From the NCBI RefSeq assembly GCF_004854025.1, contig NZ_STGM01000006.1:62001-126000 (forward strand): DNA of 64,000 bases, read 5' to 3'. The DNA comes from Microbacterium hydrothermale (GTDB lineage: Bacteria; Actinomycetota; Actinomycetes; Actinomycetales; Microbacteriaceae). Position 1 is the stretch's first letter. Each line of letters begins with the position of its first letter. Shown here one piece after another: positions 9,589-19,783 of this stretch. The position numbers and the translations under genes are program-made. Under the pieces are notes generated by a model, which saw nothing but the letters and a program-made list of their open reading frames with translations, was not told the DNA's origin and searched no databases.

Positions 9589-9636
9589 GCCACACGAAAT
9601 GCGATCCGTTCCCCTTCTTCCCGAATGCGAGACGCC

Positions 9637-11133
9637 ATGCCACGCCCCACCGACTCCTCGTCCCTTCCCAACGCCCTCCCGCAGACCGTCGCGACACAGG
9701 TGCCGCTGCGGCGCCTGCAGCGCTCCATGGACGCGCGCCACCTGGTGATGATCGCCCTGGGCGGCGTGATCGGGTCGGGGCTCTTCCTCAGCTCGGGCTA
9801 CACGATCAACCAGGCCGGCCCGCTCGGTGCGATCGTCGCCTACCTCGTCGGCGCGTTCGTCGTGTACCTGGTGATGTCGTGCCTGGGCGAACTCGCCGTG
9901 GCCTACCCCGTCTCGGGCGCCTTCCACATCTACGCTGCCCGCGCGATCAGCCCCGCCACCGGGTTCACGACGGCCTGGCTGTACTGGCTGTGCTGGGTCG
10001 TCGCCCTCGGCTCCGAGTTCACCGCCGCCGGCATCCTGATGCAGAGATGGTTCCCCGGCGTGGAGGTGTGGGTGTGGTGCCTGGTGTTCGCCGGCATCCT
10101 GTTCACCCTCAACGCGATCTCGGCGCGCGTGTTCGGCGAGACGGAGTTCTGGTTCTCGCTCATCAAGGTGGTCGCGATCGTCGCGCTCATCGTGCTCGGC
10201 GGTGCGGCGATCTTCGGCTTCACCCCGCTGTCGTCCGAGCACCCCGGGGCCGTCCTGTTCAGCAACTTCTCGACGCCCGACGGGCTCTTCCCCACCGGCA
10301 TCGCCGGCGTCCTGATGACCTCTCTGGCCGTCTTCTACGCCTTCAGCGGCTCGGAGCTCATCGGCGTCGCCGCGGGCGAGACGAAAGACCCCGCCCGCAA
10401 CATCCCGAAGGCCCTGCGCTCCACCGTGCTGCGCCTGCTCGTGCTCTTCGTCGGCTCCATCACCGTCATCGCCGCGATCCTTCCCTACGAGCAGGCGGGC
10501 CTGACCTCGAGCCCCTTCGTCGACGTCTTCGAATACGTCGGTGTGCCGTTCGCCGGCGACATCATGAACTTCGTCATCATCACCGCGCTGCTCTCGGCGG
10601 GCAACAGCGGCCTCTTCTCGTGTGCGCGGATGCTGTTCTCCCTCGCGGAGGAGGGGCACGCTCCCCGCGCGTTCACGAAGCTCACCTCCCGCGGCATCCC
10701 GATCGTCGCCCTCAGCGTCAGCATGGCGGTCGGTCTCGTCTCCCTGGTGTCGAGCGTGATCGCCGCCGAGACCGTCTACCTCGTGCTCGTCTCGATCGCC
10801 GGGTTCGCCGTCGTGGCGGTGTGGATGTCGATCGTCGCGGCGCAGTTCTTCCACCGGCGGGCCTTCGTCCGTGGGGGCGGTGACATCAAGACGCTCGCCT
10901 ACCGCACGCCGTTCTACCCCGTCGTCCCGATCCTGGCGTTCGTGCTGCTCGGGGTCTCGATCGTCGCGATCGCCTTCGACCCGAACCAGGTCGCGGCGCT
11001 ATACTTCGGCATCCCGTTCGTCGTCGCGTGCTACGTGTTCTTCTGGTGGCGGTACGGTCGTCGGGGAGCCGCTGCCGGGGCCACGCTCGATGAAGAGGCG
11101 CCGCAGGCGCCCGTGACCGAAGGACGCCGATGA
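9637..11133 (+). CDS. APC family amino acid permease, copy 1
   Basis: Amino acid-polyamine-organocation permease of about 498 aa with some 12 membrane helices. GGVIGSGLFLSSG (helix 1) is the substrate-binding glycine motif, and FYAFSGSELIGVAAGETKDP is the conserved helix 6 region of the amino-acid transporter subgroup. The start at 9637 rather than 9625 is chosen because the second copy (12779-14242) aligns from the same residues (MPRPTDSS against MSRPLDSS). It ends in an ATGA overlap with an iclR gene. Substrate unknown; neighbours suggest homoserine, threonine, methionine or a related amino acid. Confidence 0.86.
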   Translation: MPRPTDSSSLPNALPQTVATQVPLRRLQRSMDARHLVMIALGGVIGSGLFLSSGYTINQAGPLGAIVAYLVGAFVVYLVMSCLGELAVAYPVSGAFHIYAARAISPATGFTTAWLYWLCWVVALGSEFTAAGILMQRWFPGVEVWVWCLVFAGILFTLNAISARVFGETEFWFSLIKVVAIVALIVLGGAAIFGFTPLSSEHPGAVLFSNFSTPDGLFPTGIAGVLMTSLAVFYAFSGSELIGVAAGETKDPARNIPKALRSTVLRLLVLFVGSITVIAAILPYEQAGLTSSPFVDVFEYVGVPFAGDIMNFVIITALLSAGNSGLFSCARMLFSLAEEGHAPRAFTKLTSRGIPIVALSVSMAVGLVSLVSSVIAAETVYLVLVSIAGFAVVAVWMSIVAAQFFHRRAFVRGGGDIKTLAYRTPFYPVVPILAFVLLGVSIVAIAFDPNQVAALYFGIPFVVACYVFFWWRYGRRGAAAGATLDEEAPQAPVTEGRR

Positions 11134-11879
11134 CACCTCCCGCCTCGCTGACGCAGGGACTCTCGCTGCTGGACGCGGCGATCGAGAGGGAGCGGTCGGG
11201 GCGGGCCGGGTTCGCCCTCGCCCGCCTCGCCGAAGCGGCCGGGGTCGAACGCAGCCGCGCCTCGCGCGTGACGCAGGAGCTGCGGCGCCTCGCCTTCATC
11301 GAGCGCGACGCGACGACCGTGCTGCACGCGGGCCCCGCCTTCTTCGACGCGGCGGGCGCGCGTCACGAACCCTGGCTGCGCGCAGCCCGCATGCACCTGC
11401 GTGCGTTGGCCGCGCACCTGGGGATGATCGCCCGCGTGGTGGCCGCCGACGGGCAGAGGGCGCTGCTGCTGCGCATCGAGGGCGCGGGGGCGAGCGGCGA
11501 GGGAACCCTGCGTCCGGCGGCGGTCACGCCGGTCTGGTGCACCGGCGCCGGGCGGGCATTGCTCTGGGATCACTCGCGCGCCGCCCTCGACACCCTTCTG
11601 CGCGATGCGCAGTTCGTGGGCGTCGGCGGGCCGGCCGCCGCCCGGACGGTCGACGCGGTCGACGCGCTCCTGCAGCGCGATCGAGAGCGCGGGCTCATCA
11701 TCGCGCGCTCCGAGTACGTCGCCGGCCTCGACGAGTTCGCCCTGCCCGTGCGGGGGGCGCACGGTATCGTCGCGGCTCTCTCCGTGAGCGGTGCGCCGGT
11801 CTCGGCGGCGCGCGAGCGCCACATCGAGACGCTGCTGTCGCAGAGCGCGGAGCGGCTGAGTTCTCTGGCACGAGGCTGA
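11130..11879 (+). CDS. IclR family regulator, permease-linked copy 1
   Basis: IclR-type regulator of 249 aa. The N-terminal winged helix-turn-helix (about 15-65, with SRASRVTQELRRLAFIERD) is followed by the GAF-like effector domain (about 85-245). It overlaps the permease stop by four bases and is therefore made with the permease, as in autoregulated transport operons. The natural target is the palindrome at 9567-9588. Divergence from the family average is notable in the HTH, so a database search may score it weakly. It converges on the second iclR gene with only five bases between stops. Confidence 0.8.
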   Translation: MTPPASLTQGLSLLDAAIERERSGRAGFALARLAEAAGVERSRASRVTQELRRLAFIERDATTVLHAGPAFFDAAGARHEPWLRAARMHLRALAAHLGMIARVVAADGQRALLLRIEGAGASGEGTLRPAAVTPVWCTGAGRALLWDHSRAALDTLLRDAQFVGVGGPAAARTVDAVDALLQRDRERGLIIARSEYVAGLDEFALPVRGAHGIVAALSVSGAPVSAARERHIETLLSQSAERLSSLARG

Positions 11880-11884
11880 ACGGG

Positions 11885-12679
11885 TCAGCCGCGGCCCCGC
11901 CCGCCGCCGAGACGTTCGGACAGGGCCGCCGCGGCGCGTCGGCAGGCGGTTGCCGCCTGAGACGTGCGCGGCTGCAGGATGGTGCGTTCTCCGACCACCT
12001 GGATCGCCGCGACGACCTCTCCGCGGAAGTCCCAGACCGGTGCCGCGACGGAGTACAGTCCCGCCTCGGCCTCCTCGTCCACGATCGTGTACCCGCGCTC
12101 GCGGGCCTCGCGCAGTCGGCCGAGGAAGTCGTCGACGGATGCCGGAGCCCGGGGCCCCGCGCCGGCGAAATCGGTCGCGGCGAACACCGCGCGCACCTCC
12201 TCGTCATCGGCGTCCCACAGCACGGCCTGGCCGGCGTCGCTGCAGAAGGCGGGGTAGCCGCGCCCGATCCACGTTCCGACCATGTTCGAGGCCGAAGGGA
12301 TGCTTTCGACGATGGTCACCGTCGTGTCGCCGCGCAGTACGCCGAGGAAGACCGCCTCGCCGGTCGCGGCGGCCAGGTCATCGAGGACGGCGAGGCCCTC
12401 CAGCCGCAGGCGGCGGTCGACGAGGTCTTCGGCGGCGGTGTACCACGCCCACGACGGTCGGTAGCGGCGCTCGTCGTCGCGCGCGACGACATCCTGTGCA
12501 GCGAGCGCCGTAAGCGTGCGGGAGACGTGCGAGCGTTCGCGCCCGAGCGCCCGGGCGACGTCGGTCGCCGACGCTCCGCGGCCCGTGCGGGTGAGCGAGG
12601 CGACGGCGGACACCACGTCGAAGGCGCGGCTCACGGTCGAGGTGGCGTCGTCGTCGGTGCCGGCGCCCACGGTGCTCAT
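11885..12679 (-). CDS. IclR family regulator, permease-linked copy 2
   Basis: IclR-type regulator of 264 aa. The winged HTH includes SATDVARALGRERSHVSRTL (about residues 44-65), and a complete effector domain follows. The start at 12679 is favoured over 12709 because a -10-like TACGCT ends six bases before it on the minus strand, implying a leaderless mRNA. It is divergent from the second APC permease gene. With the first iclR and permease genes it makes a near-symmetrical arrangement: permease, iclR, then reversed iclR, permease. The two regulators are clearly different in sequence although the permeases are near copies. Confidence 0.82.
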   Translation of the reverse strand: MSTVGAGTDDDATSTVSRAFDVVSAVASLTRTGRGASATDVARALGRERSHVSRTLTALAAQDVVARDDERRYRPSWAWYTAAEDLVDRRLRLEGLAVLDDLAAATGEAVFLGVLRGDTTVTIVESIPSASNMVGTWIGRGYPAFCSDAGQAVLWDADDEEVRAVFAATDFAGAGPRAPASVDDFLGRLREARERGYTIVDEEAEAGLYSVAAPVWDFRGEVVAAIQVVGERTILQPRTSQAATACRRAAAALSERLGGGRGRG

Positions 12680-12704
12680 CGGCCCAGCGTACCGAGGGGC
12701 CTCC

Positions 12705-12719
12705 GGCATGAACTACTGT
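12705..12719 (+). promoter_or_regulatory. half-operator and -10 of second permease gene
   Basis: GGCATGAAC (12705-12713) repeats one arm of the palindrome before the first permease gene and directly abuts TACTGT (12714-12719), the same -10 hexamer as at 9542-9547. No good -35 is seen. The shared half-site suggests cross-regulation by one or both IclR proteins (inference). Confidence 0.4.
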
Positions 12720-12778
12720 GACTGCGTCGCCCGGACGCCTCGACGGCTCCGGGCTCGATCATGAAGGCGAGCACCCCC

Positions 12779-14242
12779 ATGAGTCGTCCCCTCGATTCCT
12801 CCCTCGACACGTCCGGCTCCGCGGGCGCACCCCGGCGACTGCGCCGCGCCATGGATGCGCGCCACCTCGTCATGATCGCCCTCGGCGGGGTGATCGGCTC
12901 GGGCCTGTTCCTCAGCTCGGGCTACACCATCCATCAGGCCGGCCCGCTCGGCGCGGTCCTGGCCTACCTGCTGGGCGCGTTCGTGGTGTGGCTGGTCATG
13001 GTGTGCCTCGGTGAGCTCGCGGTGGTCTACCCGGTGTCGGGCTCGATCCACATCTACGCCGCGCGCACGATGGGTCCCGCCACGGGGTTCGCCACGGCGT
13101 GGTTGTACTGGCTGTGCTGGGTGGTGGCGCTCGGGTCTGAGTTCACGGCATCCGGGATCCTCATGCAGCGCTGGTTCCCCACCGTCGACGTGTGGGTGTG
13201 GTGCGTGGTGTTCGCCGGCGTCCTGTTCACCCTCAACGCGATCTCGGCGCGCGTGTTCGGCGAGACGGAGTTCTGGTTCGCCCTCATCAAGGTCGTCGCG
13301 ATCGTGGCCCTCATCGTGCTCGGGACGATGGCCATCTTCGGATTCACCCCGCTGTCGCCGGAGCCGCATCAGGCGGTGGGTCTGAGCAACTTCGTCACCC
13401 CCGACGGACTGCTGCCCGCCGGGCTCGGCGGCGTGCTCATCACCTCGCTCGCGGTCTTCTACGCCTTCAGCGGTGCGGAACTGGTGGGTGTCGCCGCCGG
13501 GGAGACGAAGGACCCCCGCCGCAACATCCCGCGCGCACTGCGCTCGACGGTGCTGCGCCTGCTCGTGCTCTTCGTGGGCTCGATCGTCGTCATCGCCGCC
13601 CTCCTGCCCTACGACCAGGCGGGGCTGTCGTCGAGCCCGTTCGTCGACGTCTTCGAGTACGTGGGTGTGCCGTATGCCGCCGACATCATGAACTTCGTCG
13701 TGATCACGGCGCTGCTCTCGGTGGGCAACAGCGGCCTGTATTCCTGCGCGCGCATGCTCTTCTCGCTCGCCGAGGAGGGGTACGCCCCGAAGGTCTTCAC
13801 GAAGCTCACCCGCCGCGGCATCCCGATGGTCGCGCTCCTGGTGAGCCTGGCCATCGGCCTCGTCTCGCTCATCTCCAGCGTCGTCGCGGCCGAGACGGTG
13901 TACCTCGTGCTCGTCTCGATCGCCGGATTCGCCGCGGTGGCGGTGTGGATGTCGATCGTCGCCGCGCAGTTCTTCCACCGCCGCCAGTACCTCCGATCCG
14001 GCGGCGACGTCGCCGACCTCGCGTTCCGCACACCCCTGTACCCGCTCGTCCCGATCCTCGCCTTCGTGCTGCTGACGGCCTCGATCGTCGCGATCGCCTT
14101 CGACGAGAATCAGGTCGCGGCGCTGTACTTCGGCATCCCGTTCGTGGGCGCGTGCTACCTGTTCTTCTGGCTCCGGTACGGCCGCCGCGGGGCTCGGCCC
14201 GTTCCACTGAACGAAGAGGCTCCCGCGGGATCCGTCGACTGA
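12779..14242 (+). CDS. APC family amino acid permease, copy 2
   Basis: Close paralogue of the permease at 9637-11133, about 487 aa. Long stretches are identical in protein and largely in DNA, for example TLNAISARVFGETEFWF and MSIVAAQFFHRR. Motifs GGVIGSGLFLSSG and FYAFSGAELVGVAAGETKDP are conserved. An in-frame ATG at 12761 exists, but the paralogue alignment begins at 12779, and AAGG plus GAG just upstream can serve as the ribosome site. The C-terminal tails diverge. A recent duplication followed by regulatory specialisation is likely, so the two may take up related amino acids under different signals. Confidence 0.86.
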   Translation: MSRPLDSSLDTSGSAGAPRRLRRAMDARHLVMIALGGVIGSGLFLSSGYTIHQAGPLGAVLAYLLGAFVVWLVMVCLGELAVVYPVSGSIHIYAARTMGPATGFATAWLYWLCWVVALGSEFTASGILMQRWFPTVDVWVWCVVFAGVLFTLNAISARVFGETEFWFALIKVVAIVALIVLGTMAIFGFTPLSPEPHQAVGLSNFVTPDGLLPAGLGGVLITSLAVFYAFSGAELVGVAAGETKDPRRNIPRALRSTVLRLLVLFVGSIVVIAALLPYDQAGLSSSPFVDVFEYVGVPYAADIMNFVVITALLSVGNSGLYSCARMLFSLAEEGYAPKVFTKLTRRGIPMVALLVSLAIGLVSLISSVVAAETVYLVLVSIAGFAAVAVWMSIVAAQFFHRRQYLRSGGDVADLAFRTPLYPLVPILAFVLLTASIVAIAFDENQVAALYFGIPFVGACYLFFWLRYGRRGARPVPLNEEAPAGSVD

Positions 14243-14260
14243 CGGCGGTCGTCGGTGAGA

Positions 14261-14300
14261 GCGTCGCGCATCGACGGGTGCGCGAGGTTTCGCGCGACGC
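14261..14300. terminator. possible terminator hairpin after permease copy 2
   Basis: GCGTCGCGC (14261-14269) and GCGCGACGC (14292-14300) can form a 9-bp stem with a 22-nt loop 18 bp after the permease stop. There is no U tract and the loop is long, so this is a weak call. Confidence 0.35.
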
Positions 14301-14320
14301 CACCCACGGATGACGGACGC

Positions 14321-14393
14321 GACTACCTGGTCCCCCCGACTCGGTAGTCGGATTGCGATGCGCAGCTGCGGGTCCGTCGGCGGGTCGGTAGTG
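14321..14393. promoter_or_regulatory. phased GGTAGT repeats upstream of the SipW cluster
   Basis: GACTACC (14321-14327), its complement GGTAGTC (14343-14349) and GGTAGTG (14387-14393) begin 22 and 44 bp apart, multiples of about two DNA turns. They lie in the 287-bp gap before the surface-protein cluster, upstream of a TTTGACC (about 14419). A small hairpin, 7-bp arms 14441-14447 and 14452-14458, lies nearer the gene. The rest of the gap shows nothing recognisable. Confidence 0.4.
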
Positions 14394-14529
14394 CGCGGAC
14401 CACTGGTTCTTCATCTGGTTTGACCCGACTGCTCTTGGCGCGCGCTCCGGAGAGCGCGAGTGTCGGCGTCGCGGGGCCTCCCCGCCCGCTGGGCACCAGC
14501 CGAGCGGATCGAACCTGATGGGGGTATCC

Positions 14530-15216
14530 ATGGAGAACCAGAAGCGCCGACTCGTTCGGCGTCGCATCTTCGCCGTCGCCGCGGGTGGCGCGGCTCTGGG
14601 GGTCGGCGTCGCGGCGACCCTCGCCGCCTGGACCGATACCGAGTGGGTGTTCGGCGGCGACGGTGCAGGAGGGGCGGGGGTGGGCACCTCCACCTTCGCG
14701 ATCGAGCAGAACACCGACCCCGGCTTCGACCCGACCGCGTGGACGGACGAGCCGGACAACCCGGGCGGCCAGATGGTGTTCACCGCTGCGGGACTGCTGG
14801 GGACGGAGCTCACCCCGGGCGACAGCGTCTACGCCGCGGTGGCGCTGCGGACCAAGAACGCCTCCATCGCCGGCGACGTCCAGCTCCAAGCGGCCGATCC
14901 CGCCGCGGGGATCGCCACCGACGACCCCGGCGACCTGCTCTTCGACGCCCTCGACGTGCGCGTCGCGACGAGTGCCACCGCCTTCACCTGCGACGCGACC
15001 GCCTTCACGGGACCGGTGACCGTCATCGCCGACGGGTCGCTGGCGAACACCGGAGCCACGCTCACGCAGTCGCTCGCCGCGGCGTCGGGCTCGACGCAGT
15101 ACTACTGCTTCGAGGTGACCCTGCCCGACCCGATCCCGCTGGCGGGCGGGACGACCCCCGAGGACTACATGGGTCGGACGATCGCCCCGGCGTGGGAGTT
15201 CGTGGCCACCTCGTGA
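14530..15216 (+). CDS. SipW-type secreted surface protein (camelysin/TasA-like)
   Basis: Secreted protein of 228 aa. The N-terminus is basic (KRRLVRRR), followed by a hydrophobic stretch (about 13-35) ending in TLAAWTDTEWVFGG. This A-x-W-x-D-x-E-W junction is typical of substrates of SipW-type signal peptidases, and a SipW-type peptidase gene follows directly. The mature part is a threonine/alanine-rich beta-type domain with two cysteines. GGGGG (14520-14524) supports the ATG at 14530 over 14518. By analogy with TasA and camelysin it may be a fibre or matrix subunit; sequence similarity to them is limited to the signal region and overall character (inference). Confidence 0.7.
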   Translation: MENQKRRLVRRRIFAVAAGGAALGVGVAATLAAWTDTEWVFGGDGAGGAGVGTSTFAIEQNTDPGFDPTAWTDEPDNPGGQMVFTAAGLLGTELTPGDSVYAAVALRTKNASIAGDVQLQAADPAAGIATDDPGDLLFDALDVRVATSATAFTCDATAFTGPVTVIADGSLANTGATLTQSLAAASGSTQYYCFEVTLPDPIPLAGGTTPEDYMGRTIAPAWEFVATS

Positions 15217-15845
15217 ACGACCTGGTCACGGCATCCCGTCCGCTCGCCGCGCACGCCGCGGGTCCGCGGCACCGGTTCTCCCCTCCCGCGTCGGCCGCTG
15301 AGGCGCCGACGCCCCTCGAGCGGGTGCGGGATGCCGTGACCACCCTCGTCGGATGCCTCGGCATCCTGACCGTCGCCTGGCTCGTTGCCAGCGCCGTAGG
15401 GGGACTGGGGATCATCGTCTTCGTCACCGGCTCGATGTCGCCCTCGCTCCCCACCGGTGCCGCCGCCATCACCCGATCGGTGGATGCCGCAGATCTCGCC
15501 GTCGGCGACATCGTCACGGTGCGACGCCCCGGGAACGGTGCGCAGGTGACCCACCGCATCGTCGAGATCGCGCCCGTCGCCGGCGACCCGCGGGCGCGCA
15601 GCCTCGTGCTCCGCGGTGACGCGAACCAGGCCGCCGACCTCCAGCCCTATGTCGTGCAGAGCGCCCCACGGGTGCTGATCGGTGCTCCCCTCGTGGGCAC
15701 GATCATCACGACGGCGAAGGCCCCACCGGTGATGCTCGCCACCGCCGTCCTGATCGCCTTCGTCATCGCGTGGGCACTGTGGCCCTCCGCTGAACGAGTG
15801 CCGCACCTCGACGCCGATCAGCCGACTCCTGCTTCCTCCCGCTGA
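15213..15845 (+). CDS. SipW-type (S26B) signal peptidase I
   Basis: Membrane signal peptidase of 210 aa. A helix at about 42-72 leads straight into VTGSMSPSLPTG, whose S74 is the nucleophile. The usual catalytic lysine is replaced by a histidine (H114 in VTHRIVEI), and LRGDAN carries the conserved aspartate (D136). That Ser/His/Asp arrangement is the endoplasmic-reticulum/SipW subtype rather than LepB. A second helix (about 165-185) is near the C-terminus. The GTG at 15213 overlaps the previous stop by four bases, coupling peptidase to substrate. It is expected to process the W-x-D-x-E-W proteins encoded on either side. Confidence 0.88.
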   Translation: MNDLVTASRPLAAHAAGPRHRFSPPASAAEAPTPLERVRDAVTTLVGCLGILTVAWLVASAVGGLGIIVFVTGSMSPSLPTGAAAITRSVDAADLAVGDIVTVRRPGNGAQVTHRIVEIAPVAGDPRARSLVLRGDANQAADLQPYVVQSAPRVLIGAPLVGTIITTAKAPPVMLATAVLIAFVIAWALWPSAERVPHLDADQPTPASSR

Positions 15846-15858
15846 CCATCGGAGAACC

Positions 15859-16587
15859 ATGACCCTCTCTCCTCGCGTCGCCGGTCGGCGCGTCAGCGCG
15901 GTCCTCGCCGCCGCCGCCTCCCTTGCGCTCCTCGGAGCCGGAGGGGTGTTCGTCGCCGATGCGGCACGCGCCGCCTTCGTCGACGTCCCGCCCACGGGCG
16001 CACCGGGACGACTCGTGCTCTCCGCCGATCCGTATCCCGCCGAGTTCTTCGAACTCAGCCCCGGAGATCCCGCCTTCTGGCAGATCCAGGCGCGCCTGGA
16101 GGATGCCACGTCCGCCACGCTCGCGCTCGAGTTGCGCAAGAGCGGCCCGTTGGCGGAAGTGCCCCGCGGGCTGGTCATGCGGGTGGACGTCTGCGACGAC
16201 CCCTGGTCGGGTGCACCCGATCAACCCGTCTGCGCCCGGGGGAGCCGCTCCATCACGGTCGCGACGCCGTCCGACGAGTACGCGACGACGTCGCCCTCGT
16301 TCGAACTGCGCCCGCTCACGCCGTCGGCCCCGCAGTATCTGCTGGTGACCCTCTCGGTCGAGGACTCCGCCGCGGCGCGGGAGGACGCCTCCCTGATGGG
16401 CTTGCGCGGACGGATGGGCGTCGGACTCACGGCGATGTCGGTCGACGACGTGCCGGTGCGCCCACCGGGGCGGTTGCCGGCCACCGGTTTCGACCCGATG
16501 GCGCTCGTCGGCGTGGGTGCGCTCGCCGCGGGGCTCCTCGGAATCGGGGCGTCGATGCGGATCGCACGGAACGGGGGACGGCGATGA
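15859..16587 (+). CDS. LPXTG cell-wall-anchored surface protein
   Basis: Secreted protein of 242 aa. It has a signal peptide (about 1-40) and a mature beta-rich domain with two cysteines (C112, C125). A classical sorting signal completes it: LPATG at 206-210, a hydrophobic helix (about 212-235) and a basic tail RIARNGGRR. A sortase should attach it to peptidoglycan; no sortase gene is in this window. CGGAGAA precedes the ATG at 15859. It lies between the signal peptidase and the large secreted protein and overlaps the latter (ATGA), so it may be the wall anchor of a multi-subunit surface structure (inference). No known adhesin or enzyme domain is recognised. Confidence 0.75.
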   Translation: MTLSPRVAGRRVSAVLAAAASLALLGAGGVFVADAARAAFVDVPPTGAPGRLVLSADPYPAEFFELSPGDPAFWQIQARLEDATSATLALELRKSGPLAEVPRGLVMRVDVCDDPWSGAPDQPVCARGSRSITVATPSDEYATTSPSFELRPLTPSAPQYLLVTLSVEDSAAAREDASLMGLRGRMGVGLTAMSVDDVPVRPPGRLPATGFDPMALVGVGALAAGLLGIGASMRIARNGGRR

Positions 16588-18344
16588 AGGCTGTGATTCG
16601 GGCTGCTCTGGCCGCCGCGACGGGAATGCTGCTGGTGGTGCCGTTGGGCATCACGGCGACGACCGCGAACTGGAACGACGCCGAATGGGTCCACGACGAG
16701 GCCCTCGGGACGGGCGTCCTGGATTGCGCGCAGAATCCCGCTCTCGAGAGCCGGTCTCGGGGAACCTTCCTCGCGGGGGAGTTGCTCGGGGTCGACCTGG
16801 ATGCGCTCGCGCAGCTCGATGACATGCGTCTGACGGTGCGGCCGGACGGGGTGGCGGTACCCGATCCGGCGAACGCGCTGAATCTCGGCTCCCCGCCCCC
16901 GACCTCCACTTTCGCCAACCCGCTGAACGTGGGGGCGCTGGGGATCGTGGGGGTCGATCTCACCGGCTTCTCGGTCGGGCTGCCGGGCGCGACCCTCGGA
17001 GCGGCGAACCAATGGACGCAGGGGGCTGCCACCGGGAGCGCCGTGGGGGCGTCCGGCCTGATCAACAATTCCGGGGCCGTCCTGGTGTCGGACACGACAC
17101 CCGACAGCGACCTTCCCCGGCCCGCGACGATCGACATCACCGCTCTTCTGCCGACCGTCGCGGGGCTGAACGCCGCGCGGCTCGAGGTCGGTGCGGTCGC
17201 CGCCCGTTCGCAACTGAACGGGTGCGCCGCCCTGCTCGACCAGGTGTGGGGCGTGCCCGCCGCTCAGCCGATCGCGCAGCGGGCCTACGGCATCGCGGGT
17301 CTCGGTCTCGTCCTCGACGCTCCCGCGGTGGGGGCGTTGACCGGGGCGGTCACGACGACGGTGGGACAGCTCGAGACGGCGGTCGCCGGGCTCGTGGGGC
17401 AGAACGGCCTCATCTCGCAGACGTTGAGCAACACCCTCCGACTCCGTGTCTCCACTCTCGCGAGCACGCAGACGACGGGTACGGTAACCATCACGGGTCT
17501 CGACCTGCGGTCGACGGTCGCCCCGTTCCTCGCCCTGCAACTGCGGGGCGACGGATTCACGATCGACCTGGCGAACGGACGGATCCTCGTCGATCTCGAG
17601 CGGCTGACCGGCCCGCTGAACAACGCGGCCCCCAACACCCAGCTCGTCCTCAACGCCGGTGTCGTGAACGCCATCACGGCCGAAGCGGGCGCGCTCCTGG
17701 ATGCGTGGGCGACGGACGTCACCGCGGCGTTGCGCGCGGCGATCCTGAACGCGCAGATCAGCATCGACCTGAGCGTGCAGGTGGGCGTCAGCCTGACGAC
17801 CAACGCCCCGACCACCAACCTGGCGACCGCTCGACTCACGTTGAACACCACCATTCGCAGCCTCTTCGAAGGGAGCCCGGCGCCGGTGATCGGGGTTTCC
17901 CTCTCCGGGGTGCCCACGACGGGGCTCACCGCGCTCAACGCCGCTCTCGGCCTTCTCGGACTGCCGAACCTGACGACGATCGTCAACACCCTCTCCCTGT
18001 CCGGACCCGTCCTGACGACGTCCTTGACCAGCCTGCTCACCACCGAACTCCTGAACCGCGTCACCACCCTCGGCGCGACGCTGTCCACGCTCTCGGCACC
18101 GGTGGTCACCGTTCTGGCGAATGTGTTGAACGCGCTGCCGTCGGTCGTGTCGGTGATGGTCAACGTGCAGCCGGACGTGTCCGGGGCTCCTCCGGGGTCG
18201 ACGTACACGCTGCCGACAGCCCGCTCGACGGCCGAGTACGCGGTGACCGCGCTCCGGCTCGGGCTCGCCGACTTCGCAACCCCCTCCGACGTCGCCCACG
18301 TCCTCTTCGCCACGGGATCGGCGGGGCCGGTCACCCTTCCCTGA
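16584..18344 (+). CDS. large secreted surface protein (choice-of-anchor G type)
   Basis: Secreted protein of 586 aa, low in lysine and rich in Thr, Leu, Ala and Asn. The signal peptide ends in TTANWNDAEWVHDEA, the same W-x-D-x-E-W junction as the protein at 14530-15216, so the SipW-type peptidase probably processes both. The mature chain has many short beta-prone repeats of the kind LTTxLTxLLT and a long Leu/Thr-rich tail with few charges. It resembles actinobacterial 'choice-of-anchor G' proteins, named for family architecture and not for function. There is no LPXTG, so attachment would depend on the wall-anchored neighbour or on self-assembly (inference). Confidence 0.72.
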   Translation: MKAVIRAALAAATGMLLVVPLGITATTANWNDAEWVHDEALGTGVLDCAQNPALESRSRGTFLAGELLGVDLDALAQLDDMRLTVRPDGVAVPDPANALNLGSPPPTSTFANPLNVGALGIVGVDLTGFSVGLPGATLGAANQWTQGAATGSAVGASGLINNSGAVLVSDTTPDSDLPRPATIDITALLPTVAGLNAARLEVGAVAARSQLNGCAALLDQVWGVPAAQPIAQRAYGIAGLGLVLDAPAVGALTGAVTTTVGQLETAVAGLVGQNGLISQTLSNTLRLRVSTLASTQTTGTVTITGLDLRSTVAPFLALQLRGDGFTIDLANGRILVDLERLTGPLNNAAPNTQLVLNAGVVNAITAEAGALLDAWATDVTAALRAAILNAQISIDLSVQVGVSLTTNAPTTNLATARLTLNTTIRSLFEGSPAPVIGVSLSGVPTTGLTALNAALGLLGLPNLTTIVNTLSLSGPVLTTSLTSLLTTELLNRVTTLGATLSTLSAPVVTVLANVLNALPSVVSVMVNVQPDVSGAPPGSTYTLPTARSTAEYAVTALRLGLADFATPSDVAHVLFATGSAGPVTLP

Positions 18345-18346
18345 CG

Positions 18347-18378
18347 GGCCGCGGCGGCGCCCGGACGTCGCCGCGGCC
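18347..18378 (+). terminator. terminator of the surface-protein cluster
   Basis: A perfect 10-bp GC stem (18347-18356 with 18369-18378) with a 12-nt loop starts 3 bp after the stop codon. A new promoter follows, with TACTCT (18417-18422) as the likely -10 of the amine oxidase gene. Confidence 0.6.
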
Positions 18379-18454
18379 ATCTCCGGGGCGGCCGCCGTCG
18401 ACGACCCCGGGCGGACTACTCTCGTCACACGGTCGTCTACCCGAGGGAGCCGTC

Positions 18455-19783
18455 ATGCAGGAGCAGTTCGACACCGTCGTCGTGGGAGCGGGCATCTCCG
18501 GCCTCGCCGCCGCCCGGCTTCTCGCCCGTCACGGGCATCGAGTGGTCGTGCTCGAGGCCCGTGACCGCGTCGGCGGCCGGGTCTTCACCGACCGCAGCGA
18601 AGGGCACGTCACCGACCGGGGGGCGTCGTGGATCCACGGCATCGACGACAGTCCGGTCGCCGAGGCCGCACGCGCCTTCGGGATGCCGATGGTGGAGTTC
18701 ACCGTCGGGGGCTACCAACCGGACTCGCGTCCCCTGACGTACTTCGACGCCGAGGGTCACCGCCTGGCGCCCGAGGCGGTGCGCCGCTACGCCGACGACA
18801 TCCGCGCGCTCAATGCGGCCCTGGTGGACGTGATCGCCGAGGCCGCGGACGATGCGACCTACGCCGAGGTCGTCGAGCGGGCGCTCGCCGCGCAGGACTG
18901 GGATGCCGAGCGCGCCGAGCGCGTGCGCGAGTACAACGACCGCCGCGCCCAGGAGCAGTACGGCATCGGCATGGCCGGTCTCGGGGCCCACGGTCTCGAC
19001 GACGACACCGTCAACGGCGACGAGGTCGTCTTCCCGCGCGGGTACGACGAGCTCGCGACGCGGTTCGCCGAGGGACTCGACGTGCGACTCGAGCACGTGG
19101 TCTCCCGCGTGCGGTGGGCGGCCGACGGGGCCGAAGTCGAGACGGACCTCGGCACGTTCCACGGCAGGCACGTGGTGGTCACGGTGCCGGTGGGGGTTCT
19201 GCAGGCGGGTGATCTCGAGATCGAGCCCGCCCTCCCCGCGGCGCACGCCCGTGCGCTCGGCCTGCTCCGCATGAACGCCTTCGAGAAGGTCGTGCTCCGC
19301 TTCGCCGAACGGTTCTGGGAGCCCGACGTCTACGGCATCCGTCAGCTCGGCGACGAGGGGCAGTGGTGGCACTCCTGGTACGACCTCGGGCGCCTGCACG
19401 ACGAGCCCGCCCTGCTCACCTTCGCCGCGGGTCCCGCCGCCCTCGCGACGCGCGCGTGGAGCGACGACGAGATCGTGGCGTCCACCCTCGCGCAGCTGCG
19501 GCGGCTGTACGGCGACGCGGTGCCCGAGCCCGAGAGTGCGGTGGTCACCCGGTGGCAGGACGATCCGTTCTCGCACGGCTCGTACGCCTACATGCTCCCG
19601 GGGTCGGTCGGCGCGGATCACGACGACCTCGCCGAGCCGGTCGGCGGGGGAGTGCTGCACGTGGCCGGCGAGGCGACGTGGGGCGACGACCCGGCGACGG
19701 TCCCCGGCGCGATGCTCTCGGGGCATCGCGCGGCGCAGAACGTGCTCGGTCGAGAGGTCGCGGTCGGCGACCTCTGGGCCTGA
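18455..19783 (+). CDS. flavin-containing amine oxidase
   Basis: FAD-dependent amine oxidase of 442 aa, similar in layout to polyamine/monoamine oxidases. The dinucleotide-binding fold is at the N-terminus (VVVGAGISGLAAA, about residues 8-20), followed by EARDRVGGRV. The C-terminal FAD motif is LHVAGEATWGDDPATVPGAMLSG. It would oxidise a primary or secondary amine to an aldehyde with release of H2O2. GAGGGAG precedes the ATG at 18455. There is no signal peptide, so it is cytosolic. It is monocistronic between a terminator and the converging rhodanese gene. Substrate unknown. Confidence 0.85.
   Translation: MQEQFDTVVVGAGISGLAAARLLARHGHRVVVLEARDRVGGRVFTDRSEGHVTDRGASWIHGIDDSPVAEAARAFGMPMVEFTVGGYQPDSRPLTYFDAEGHRLAPEAVRRYADDIRALNAALVDVIAEAADDATYAEVVERALAAQDWDAERAERVREYNDRRAQEQYGIGMAGLGAHGLDDDTVNGDEVVFPRGYDELATRFAEGLDVRLEHVVSRVRWAADGAEVETDLGTFHGRHVVVTVPVGVLQAGDLEIEPALPAAHARALGLLRMNAFEKVVLRFAERFWEPDVYGIRQLGDEGQWWHSWYDLGRLHDEPALLTFAAGPAALATRAWSDDEIVASTLAQLRRLYGDAVPEPESAVVTRWQDDPFSHGSYAYMLPGSVGADHDDLAEPVGGGVLHVAGEATWGDDPATVPGAMLSGHRAAQNVLGREVAVGDLWA

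Follow-up and report, generated by a model that had tools for sequence, protein, structure and literature searches.

A conserved SipW-centred operon of Microbacterium hydrothermale with a candidate sortase-anchored donor-strand assembly

The SipW-centred locus

A stretch of 64,000 nucleotides from the 3.58 Mb draft genome sequence of Microbacterium hydrothermale (NZ_STGM01000006.1, contig C15 here), called the window throughout, was analysed around four neighbouring genes on the + strand at 14530-18344 (Table 1). These encode an exported protein (G1), a SipW-like signal peptidase, a second exported protein with a wall-sorting signal (G3) and a choice-of-anchor G protein (chG), and they are considered here as a candidate surface assembly fixed to the cell wall. 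The original prediction, made from the sequence of the window, had four overlapping or closely spaced genes at this site, and all four are found. G1 overlaps the peptidase gene by 4 base pairs (bp) (GTGA), a 13 bp gap follows the peptidase gene, and G3 overlaps chG by 4 bp (ATGA). Based on these junctions, the four genes are probably one translationally coupled operon. No sigma-70-like promoter site was found in a scan of 14200-18500, a type of scan that tells little for this organism.

Table 1. Genes and predicted features of the operon, in positions of the window
Feature	Position	Strand	Description
G1	14530..15216	+	228 amino acids; SipW-dependent-type export protein, predicted stalk subunit (donor segment and TasA-like beta sandwich)
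G1 predicted mature N-terminus AWTDTEW...GVGTSTF	14626..14697	+	Residues 33-56; predicted donor segment
SipW-like type I signal peptidase	15213..15845	+	210 amino acids; GTG start
G3	15859..16587	+	242 amino acids; exported TasA-fold protein with C-terminal sorting signal, predicted wall-anchored acceptor base
LPATG sorting motif of G3	16474..16488	+	From sequence; followed by hydrophobic stretch and basic tail
chG	16584..18344	+	586 amino acids; choice-of-anchor G, SipW-type N-terminus, no sorting signal, predicted tip
chG predicted mature N-terminus NWNDAEWVHDEALGTGVLDC	16668..16727	+	Residues 29-48; donor-like segment, from alignment
Choice-of-anchor G domain of chG	16746..17645	+	Residues 55-354; NF033766 match range

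The peptidase scores 57.6 bits against TIGR02228 (type I signal peptidase, SipW/archaeal endoplasmic reticulum type; cut-off 51.85) and 35.5 bits against NF046067, the equivalog model of the Bacillus SipW, for which the cut-off is 190. Ser-His-Asp is the residue type of the signal peptidases in the SipW/archaeal class, and the boxes around these residues are kept in 93, 90 and 95 of 97 SipW matches, respectively. A SipW-type peptidase with Ser74, His114 and Asp136 had been predicted, and both the residues and the family are borne out.

G1 matches TIGR04088, the SipW-dependent-type signal region, with 23.9 bits (cut-off 19) and has no sorting signal. Its nearest relatives in named genomes are from Microbacterium sp. 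RU1D and M. testaceum NS220, at 88% identity. The motif W-x-D-x-E-W is present in G1 (WTDTEW) and chG (WNDAEW) and absent from G3. Since its W, D, E and W are invariant in the 17 G1 proteins found as neighbours of chG, its presence is more than chance. The four residues are also invariant in 73 G1, although one of the three search patterns used for that set contained the motif. The cleavage sites of G1 and chG are predicted and were placed by analogy, that of G1 with TasA. By this analogy the motif lies in the predicted mature N-terminus, the donor strand in TasA, and the region, which had been put forward as a cleavage region in two exported proteins, is indeed present in two and need not be a cleavage signal only.

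G3 has a Sec-type signal, the LPATG of the predicted wall anchor, a hydrophobic stretch and a basic tail. By rule, a sorting signal is present in 18 of 22 and in 59 of 71 G3 relatives. There are three sortase matches in the same genome, on contigs C11, C12 and C14. G3 therefore has the marks of a sortase-anchored wall protein (LPXTG, hydrophobic stretch, basic tail, and a sortase in the genome), on which a sortase encoded away from the operon would have to act, the matches being on other contigs.

chG matches NF033766 (choice-of-anchor G) with 220.1 bits, well above the cut-off of 45. No NCBIfam match was found for G3 at E values up to 1. Searches of PDB sequences gave no useful relative: none for the G1 profile, weak antibody and carbonic anhydrase matches for G1, two chance-like matches for the G3 profile, and none for the single chG sequence; the matches of the chG profile were short and were to viral spike helices, a BPI fold and a designed protein, at E 0.0085-0.83. 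Membership of the camelysin/TasA group by sequence was rejected for G1 and G3. At E values up to 1, neither matched the TasA equivalog NF046066 of NCBIfam nor the Pfam camelysin family (camelysin/M73).

Conservation of the gene set

A search of an 84,980-species genome collection with a G1 alignment identified 97 relatives, the best 80 of which are the named loci used below. Profiles trained on a survey covering 299 genomes of the family show the order G1-SipW-G3-chG intact at 74 of these 80 loci. Thirteen of the 80 share DNA with the training survey, and all six exceptions are among the other 67. The genera concerned include Microbacterium, Curtobacterium, Leucobacter, Herbiconiux, Labedella, Frigoribacterium, Agreia, Clavibacter, Cellulomonas, Sanguibacter, Jonesia, Nakamurella, Citricoccus and Paenarthrobacter, among others. 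Two of the exceptions (L122, L159) run off their contigs. Three, all from Cellulomonas (L185, L189, L190), have a single frame of 464-511 amino acids in which SipW is joined to a G3-like end, and chG comes next; the G3-like part, not matched by the first G3 profile, is recognised at E 1e-14 to 1e-22. The sixth (L196) has two G1 genes and SipW plus G3 in one frame, without chG.

The association is also seen from the side of G3. In the survey of the 299 genomes, with at most nine candidates scored per genome and only strong matches used (E below 1e-20, n = 32), chG lies directly downstream of G3 in 30 of the 32, and both exceptions are in one genome (G039). G3 matches at E values up to 0.001, present in 173 of the 299 genomes, were rejected as a measure of prevalence; many of the weak ones cover only the sorting signal. 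A strict search (E 1e-12) of 396 genomes across the phylum returned only the genome of the window itself, and the gene set is therefore lineage-restricted, though present in several families.

The operon is preceded by an amino-acid permease gene (12761-14242) and followed by an amine oxidoreductase gene (18455-19783), relatives of which are found in only two and four, respectively, of the best 80 G1 loci. The conserved unit therefore ends at the limits originally given to it, 14530-18344. The four-gene order, whose conservation had been left to be checked, is the rule in these loci, and the three secreted proteins, on whose co-occurrence in other genomes the original prediction was staked, do occur together, both in the named loci and beside the strong G3 matches.

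Predicted folds and relatedness

AlphaFold2 models of mature G1 and G3, from 73 and 66 sequences, are confident, with predicted local distance difference test scores (pLDDT) of 92.4 and 91.1 and predicted template modelling scores (pTM) of 0.86 and 0.85. When compared with 350,542 PDB chains by Foldseek, the top match of both is the TasA fibre, 8aur (E 1.2e-4 for G1 and 7.8e-4 for G3). The second-best match of G1 is 7ueg, the archaeal bundling pilus of Pyrobaculum (E 3.2e-4). A second aligner again placed 8aur first, with Z 8.6, 151 aligned and a root-mean-square deviation (rmsd) of 3.8 for G1, and Z 8.8, 146 aligned and rmsd 5.1 for G3. Monomeric TasA (5of2) gave Z 6.9 with G1. The first residue of the G1 model aligns with TasA residue 28, where the donor starts; the alignment of G3 begins only at TasA 43, after the donor. 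This model-based evidence draws its weight from the fact that one and the same fibre is the top match of G1 and of G3. Toxin domains, sialidases, capsid proteins and pilins were also matched by fold, but these matches were put down to the beta-sandwich arrangement being a common one.

The profiles of G1 and G3 are collinear over 146 columns when 73 and 66 rows are compared (probability score 81, E 1.2e-5); with 17 and 18 rows the score was 6.5. Homology of G1 and G3 from iterated hidden Markov model searching alone was rejected as circular, a one-pass test having reached one of 93 G3, and their relatedness rests on the profile-profile comparison and the models. The iterated G1 profile was used for the location of matches, not for their significance. 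Among the 12 matches listed in each case, it meets chG only in the first 59 positions, covering the signal, WxDxEW and GT-x-F, and G3 only from positions 39-72 on. The match to chG rests on the signal and a short segment, because the profile of mature G1 matches no chG. By these sequences and models, G1 appears to be a donor-type segment followed by a TasA fold, chG a donor-type segment followed by the chG domain, and G3 a TasA fold with a sortase anchor and no donor segment.

Anchors of the choice-of-anchor G proteins

Proteins matching NF033766 are present in 114 of the 299 genomes. All 143 other places above the cut-off in these genomes were tabulated with that of the window, making 144, as stop-to-stop frames; two rows from one broken gene in genome G009 were merged and one row below the cut-off was excluded. 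In 32 places chG adjoins G1 and SipW (the operon type). The remaining 112 are orphans, of which 13 run off the fetched region and 99 are full-length. None of the 32 operon chG has a sorting signal, and the same 30 loci have both G3 and a chG with a hydrophobic stretch followed by W-x3-[EQ]. A sorting signal is found in 74 of the 99 full-length orphans, and W-x3-[EQ] in only one (genome G190, SWAQGQFL), where it seems to belong to the beginning of the chG domain. For the sorting signal, Fisher's test of operon versus orphan chG gives p 2.9e-15, a value to be read with the non-independence of relatives in mind.

In the named loci, W-x3-[EQ] is present in 71 of 74 operon chG (53 by the strict pattern) and a sorting signal in none of the 74. 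Those that fail the rule are L147, L148 and L175, although by eye L148 has AAWTDREW. The two kinds also differ in length. Measured from the start of the domain, operon chG span 500-598 amino acids (n = 32). The median for orphans that carry a sorting signal is 1268 (n = 74), and 63 of the 74 exceed the longest operon chG. A Pfam scan of five chosen orphans of 882-1965 amino acids found TIG (immunoglobulin-like, Ig-like) stretches in three (15, 15 and 4) and none in two. In keeping with the name of the family, chG proteins thus have several anchors, the operon type having a SipW-type N-terminus and no anchor of its own. The domain is found either on a long self-anchored chain or on a short one, without anchor, that is accompanied by G1 and G3.

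An earlier, partial table, covering 77 of the 143 places (mostly higher-scoring ones) and the window, had given the motif in 19 of 19 and a sorting signal in none of 19 operon chG, with 0 of 46 and 43 of 46, respectively, in full-length orphans. Its genes were called with a home-made program; no chG was obtained from three regions, and 10 orphans truncated at an edge were excluded. The complete table is the one relied upon; it is less clean, having brought in two operons that lack G3, and confidence in a donor-strand reading is therefore slightly lower than the partial table would have given.

The genome of the window has a second, orphan choice-of-anchor G protein that runs off the end of its contig (G000:C11:886-1710). 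In three genomes of genus g51 (loci L062, L064, L069), a regulator-like protein of 917 amino acids, with a C-terminal LuxR-like helix-turn-helix by eye, is encoded between a giant orphan chG and a SipW cluster that has no chG.

Sister clusters and gene fusions

A divergent cluster lies beside the main operon at two loci (L156:2072-5023 and L182:1102-4088). It has two G1-like genes, SipW, a G3 with LATTG, and a small protein in the position of the tip. This protein, of 165 or 162 amino acids, starts with a SipW-type N-terminus, has no anchor by rule and does not match chG. Clusters laid out in this way, except that SipW and G3 form a single frame, occur in L196, L200 and twice in L201. Overall, the sister tip proteins follow G3 and are 131-165 amino acids as called.

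The sister G1 and tips share a short-spacer segment, as in EFATGTFTAG, which is present in 13 of 14 sister G1 and five of six sister tips. In the main type it is present in none of 73 G1 and one of 89 chG. The pattern was written after the sequences had been seen. The sixth sister tip (L201_9) fails it because a later W is picked, and by eye has SWTTAETGTGSF. A signal peptidase is expected to read only a limited distance into the mature N-terminus. At loci where the two cluster types adjoin, the resemblance of each tip to the G1 of its own cluster extends beyond this range. Two further loci, fetched as weak G3 matches (L202, L204), have other SipW and G3-like genes without the short-spacer motif or a tip.

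Other SipW clusters are present in the genome of the window. One, on contig C1 (G000:C1, about 357660-360400; L114:5662-8375), has a SipW of 367 amino acids whose frame ends in LPLTG, and three small exported proteins, one of them in TIGR04089. Two SipW-like proteins below the TIGR02228 cut-off, on C11 (about 198050-200430; L115:6053-8432) and C14 (about 133130-134870; L116:5127-6873), have long C-terminal extensions and a small exported neighbour; by eye, the one of 568 amino acids seems to end in a lectin-like region.

A proposed assembly and its alternatives

The reading favoured here, with modest confidence, is that the operon encodes a sortase-anchored donor-strand assembly in which G3 is the base, G1 the stalk and chG the tip. 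From the genes, their conserved order, and the complementary spread of donor-type segment, fold and anchor seen in sequences and models, we infer cleavage sites, open grooves, docking, polymerisation, wall linkage and a tip function as follows. SipW would remove the signal peptides of G1 and chG, freeing their N-terminal WxDxEW segments as donor strands. G3, exported by an ordinary signal peptide, would be fixed to peptidoglycan by a sortase via LPATG and act as a base that only accepts. G1, with both groove and donor, would fill the groove of G3 or of another G1, building a stalk of one to many copies, and chG, having a donor only, would close the free end as the tip, probably as a binding or adhesion module. 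If G3 accepts only, chG donates only and G1 does both, the resulting chain would be fixed at its base and capped at its other end. The original prediction, in which two SipW-processed subunits accompany a base anchored by a sortase, in an assembly unlike the TasA/camelysin systems, is supported by the co-occurrence of the proteins and the predicted TasA-fibre fold. The two SipW-type subunits do not appear to be equivalent, as G1 has the predicted TasA fold and chG shares the N-terminal region only.

A wider proposal takes in the sister clusters and orphans and is offered tentatively, its chances being close to even. In this proposal, they all belong to a class of donor-strand fibres that are modular, can exchange their tips and are attached to the Gram-positive wall by a covalent bond. 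The cassette would consist of one or more TasA-fold stalk proteins, SipW, a TasA-fold anchor that only accepts, either separate or fused to SipW, and a tip that only donates. The tip would be chG or a different small protein, in each case with a donor segment of the same type as that of the stalk it belongs to. The chG domain would be carried on a covalent stalk with its own anchor, in some cases with Ig-like repeats, or on a non-covalent, self-assembling stalk. The rare relatives that lack G3 would be forms without an anchor, similar to TasA.

Several observations weigh against the proposed assembly. The operons of genomes G097 (L269) and G159 (L270) have G1, SipW and chG without G3, so the base is not always present and may not always be needed; the N-terminus of chG in these is AAW or ASW, without W-x3-E. 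A sister cluster (L203) has G1, G1 and G3 with no tip seen. No sortase gene was found on the contig of the window. By rule, 25 of the 99 full-length orphan chG lack a sorting signal. By eye, five of these have a signal below the hydropathy cut and six are broken or odd. Seven orphans, which are shorter proteins (L249, L253, L255, L256, L257, L259, L262), have a membrane stretch and a basic tail at their C-terminus but lack the motif, and seven are without any anchor, six of the latter with signals that look like those of twin-arginine translocation (Tat) as called. By eye, the orphans with Tat-like signals are L247, L254, L263, L264, L265 and L266, the call for L254 starting past the expected twin arginine. 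As to the folds, the Foldseek template modelling (TM) scores are modest (0.50/0.43 with rmsd 7.4 for G1; 0.40/0.31 with rmsd 17.2 for G3), and unrelated beta sandwiches reach Z 7-8, little below the 8-9 of G1 and G3. The one-pass profile of mature G1 reaches its single G3 only weakly (E 0.0061) and matches none of 150 chG. Finally, the shared N-termini of G1 and chG may reflect descent or SipW recognition, and the matching of tip and G1 segments by cluster type could be due to shared descent of the segments.

The strongest of the alternatives, though itself unlikely, is a small wall-anchored complex that forms no fibre. A single G1 would bridge G3 and chG, or chG would dock on G3 directly, with strand exchange and no polymerisation. 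The operon of the window does have single G1, G3 and chG genes, as do most of the listed loci. Against this, G1 retains a donor-type segment together with the predicted TasA fold, the combination that polymerises in TasA according to the accessible part of PMC9674648, and the sister clusters hold two G1 genes.

It is less probable again that G1, G3 and chG act separately, as surface or secreted proteins with no more in common than an operon and, for two of them, SipW, with WxDxEW as the recognition sequence of the peptidase. Such an explanation fits the description of TIGR04088 as a SipW-dependent-type signal region, the seven orphan chG without an anchor, and the small proteins beside the other SipW genes of this genome, which by eye have an aromatic residue after the hydrophobic stretch. 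It leaves unexplained why chG has no sorting signal where G3 supplies one (0 of 32 operon chG compared with 74 of 99 orphans), why SipW and G3 are fused in some loci, and why tip and G1 segments match by cluster type.

The least probable of the three is that G1 is a free matrix protein like TasA, chG a TapA-like initiator and G3 an independent wall protein, which would agree with the two operons without G3 and with TapA, reported to donate its N-terminus to TasA with no sortase anchor named in the accessible text of PMC9674648 and PMC10151520, but G3 itself has the predicted TasA fold, is flanked by SipW and chG at 74 of the 80 loci and adjoins chG in 30 of the 32 strong matches.

Relation to known systems

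The closest comparison is with TapA-SipW-TasA of Bacillus subtilis (8aur). Here and below, literature statements refer to the accessible parts of the papers cited. Residues 28-38 of TasA are the strand given to the next subunit, and the N-terminus of TapA resembles this donor and fills TasA in a model (PMC9674648). Donation of the N-terminus by TapA is also reported in PMC10151520. The holding of the fibres at the cell rests on TapA, on which the two sources differ, one describing it as thought to anchor TasA and the other considering its participation in the filament past initiation unlikely (PMC9674648, PMC10151520). The M. hydrothermale operon likewise has a dedicated SipW, a predicted TasA-fold subunit with an N-terminal donor-type segment, and a second exported protein that shares this segment, with chG in the place of TapA. 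It differs in the lack of an NCBIfam TasA match, in the additional anchored protein with a predicted TasA fold and no donor segment (G3), in having chG as the donor-only protein, and in being found here in Actinobacteria. The operon therefore belongs with systems of the TasA/TapA/SipW kind, but is not TasA by the curated profile.

Other SipW-dependent or TasA-like systems share parts of this arrangement. In the CalY/TasA/CapP system of Bacillus cereus, TasA-like subunits form heteropolymers with an accessory protein; unlike the operon, that system is described as sortase-independent (PMC13082335). The sipW-bsaA operon of Clostridium perfringens similarly has a SipW-dependent exported subunit, which forms stable polymers, and encodes further secreted proteins; unlike here, no LPXTG-like sequence is predicted for BsaA in the accessible text, loss of srtB is without effect, and the polymers are mainly extracellular (PMC7395162). 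The fold match of G1 to 7ueg is to an archaeal pilus that has been called TasA-like (PMC9674648). What is new with respect to BsaA and CalY/TasA/CapP is an anchored base with the fold of the subunit and without the donor segment, together with an exchangeable tip.

The orphan NF033766 proteins have the same domain as operon chG, and most full-length ones carry their own wall-sorting signal. Unlike these single, self-anchored polypeptides, some of which have TIG repeats, the operon would divide tip, stalk and anchor between three proteins. Sortase-assembled pili, built by class C sortases, are also wall-anchored multi-protein surface structures. The operon does not resemble them, there being no sortase gene in the cluster or elsewhere on its contig. 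Neither G1, the candidate for the stalk, nor chG, that for the tip, carries a sorting signal, so that covalent polymerisation by a sortase is not expected. No description of such a wall-anchored SipW/chG system was found in the full-text literature searched, which does not cover most subscription papers, so that its absence from the literature is unproven.

The operon suggests a solution to the problem of holding TasA-like fibres at the cell, in the form of a third protein with the fold of the subunit, no donor strand and a sortase signal. If this is true, two principles of surface display, donor-strand fibres and sortase anchoring, would be joined in one system. An unnamed LPXTG protein would also gain a role, as would a domain that is known just for its changing anchors. 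Part of that change of anchor would then be explained by the chG domain exchanging a covalent stalk for an assembled one.

Neighbouring genes

The permease gene upstream of G1 is one of two similar amino-acid permease genes in the window, at 9625-11133 and 12761-14242, for which the best NCBIfam match is the S-methylmethionine permease, below its cut-off. Between them are an IclR-type regulator (11885-12709, minus strand) and a gene that looks regulator-like by eye (11130-11879).

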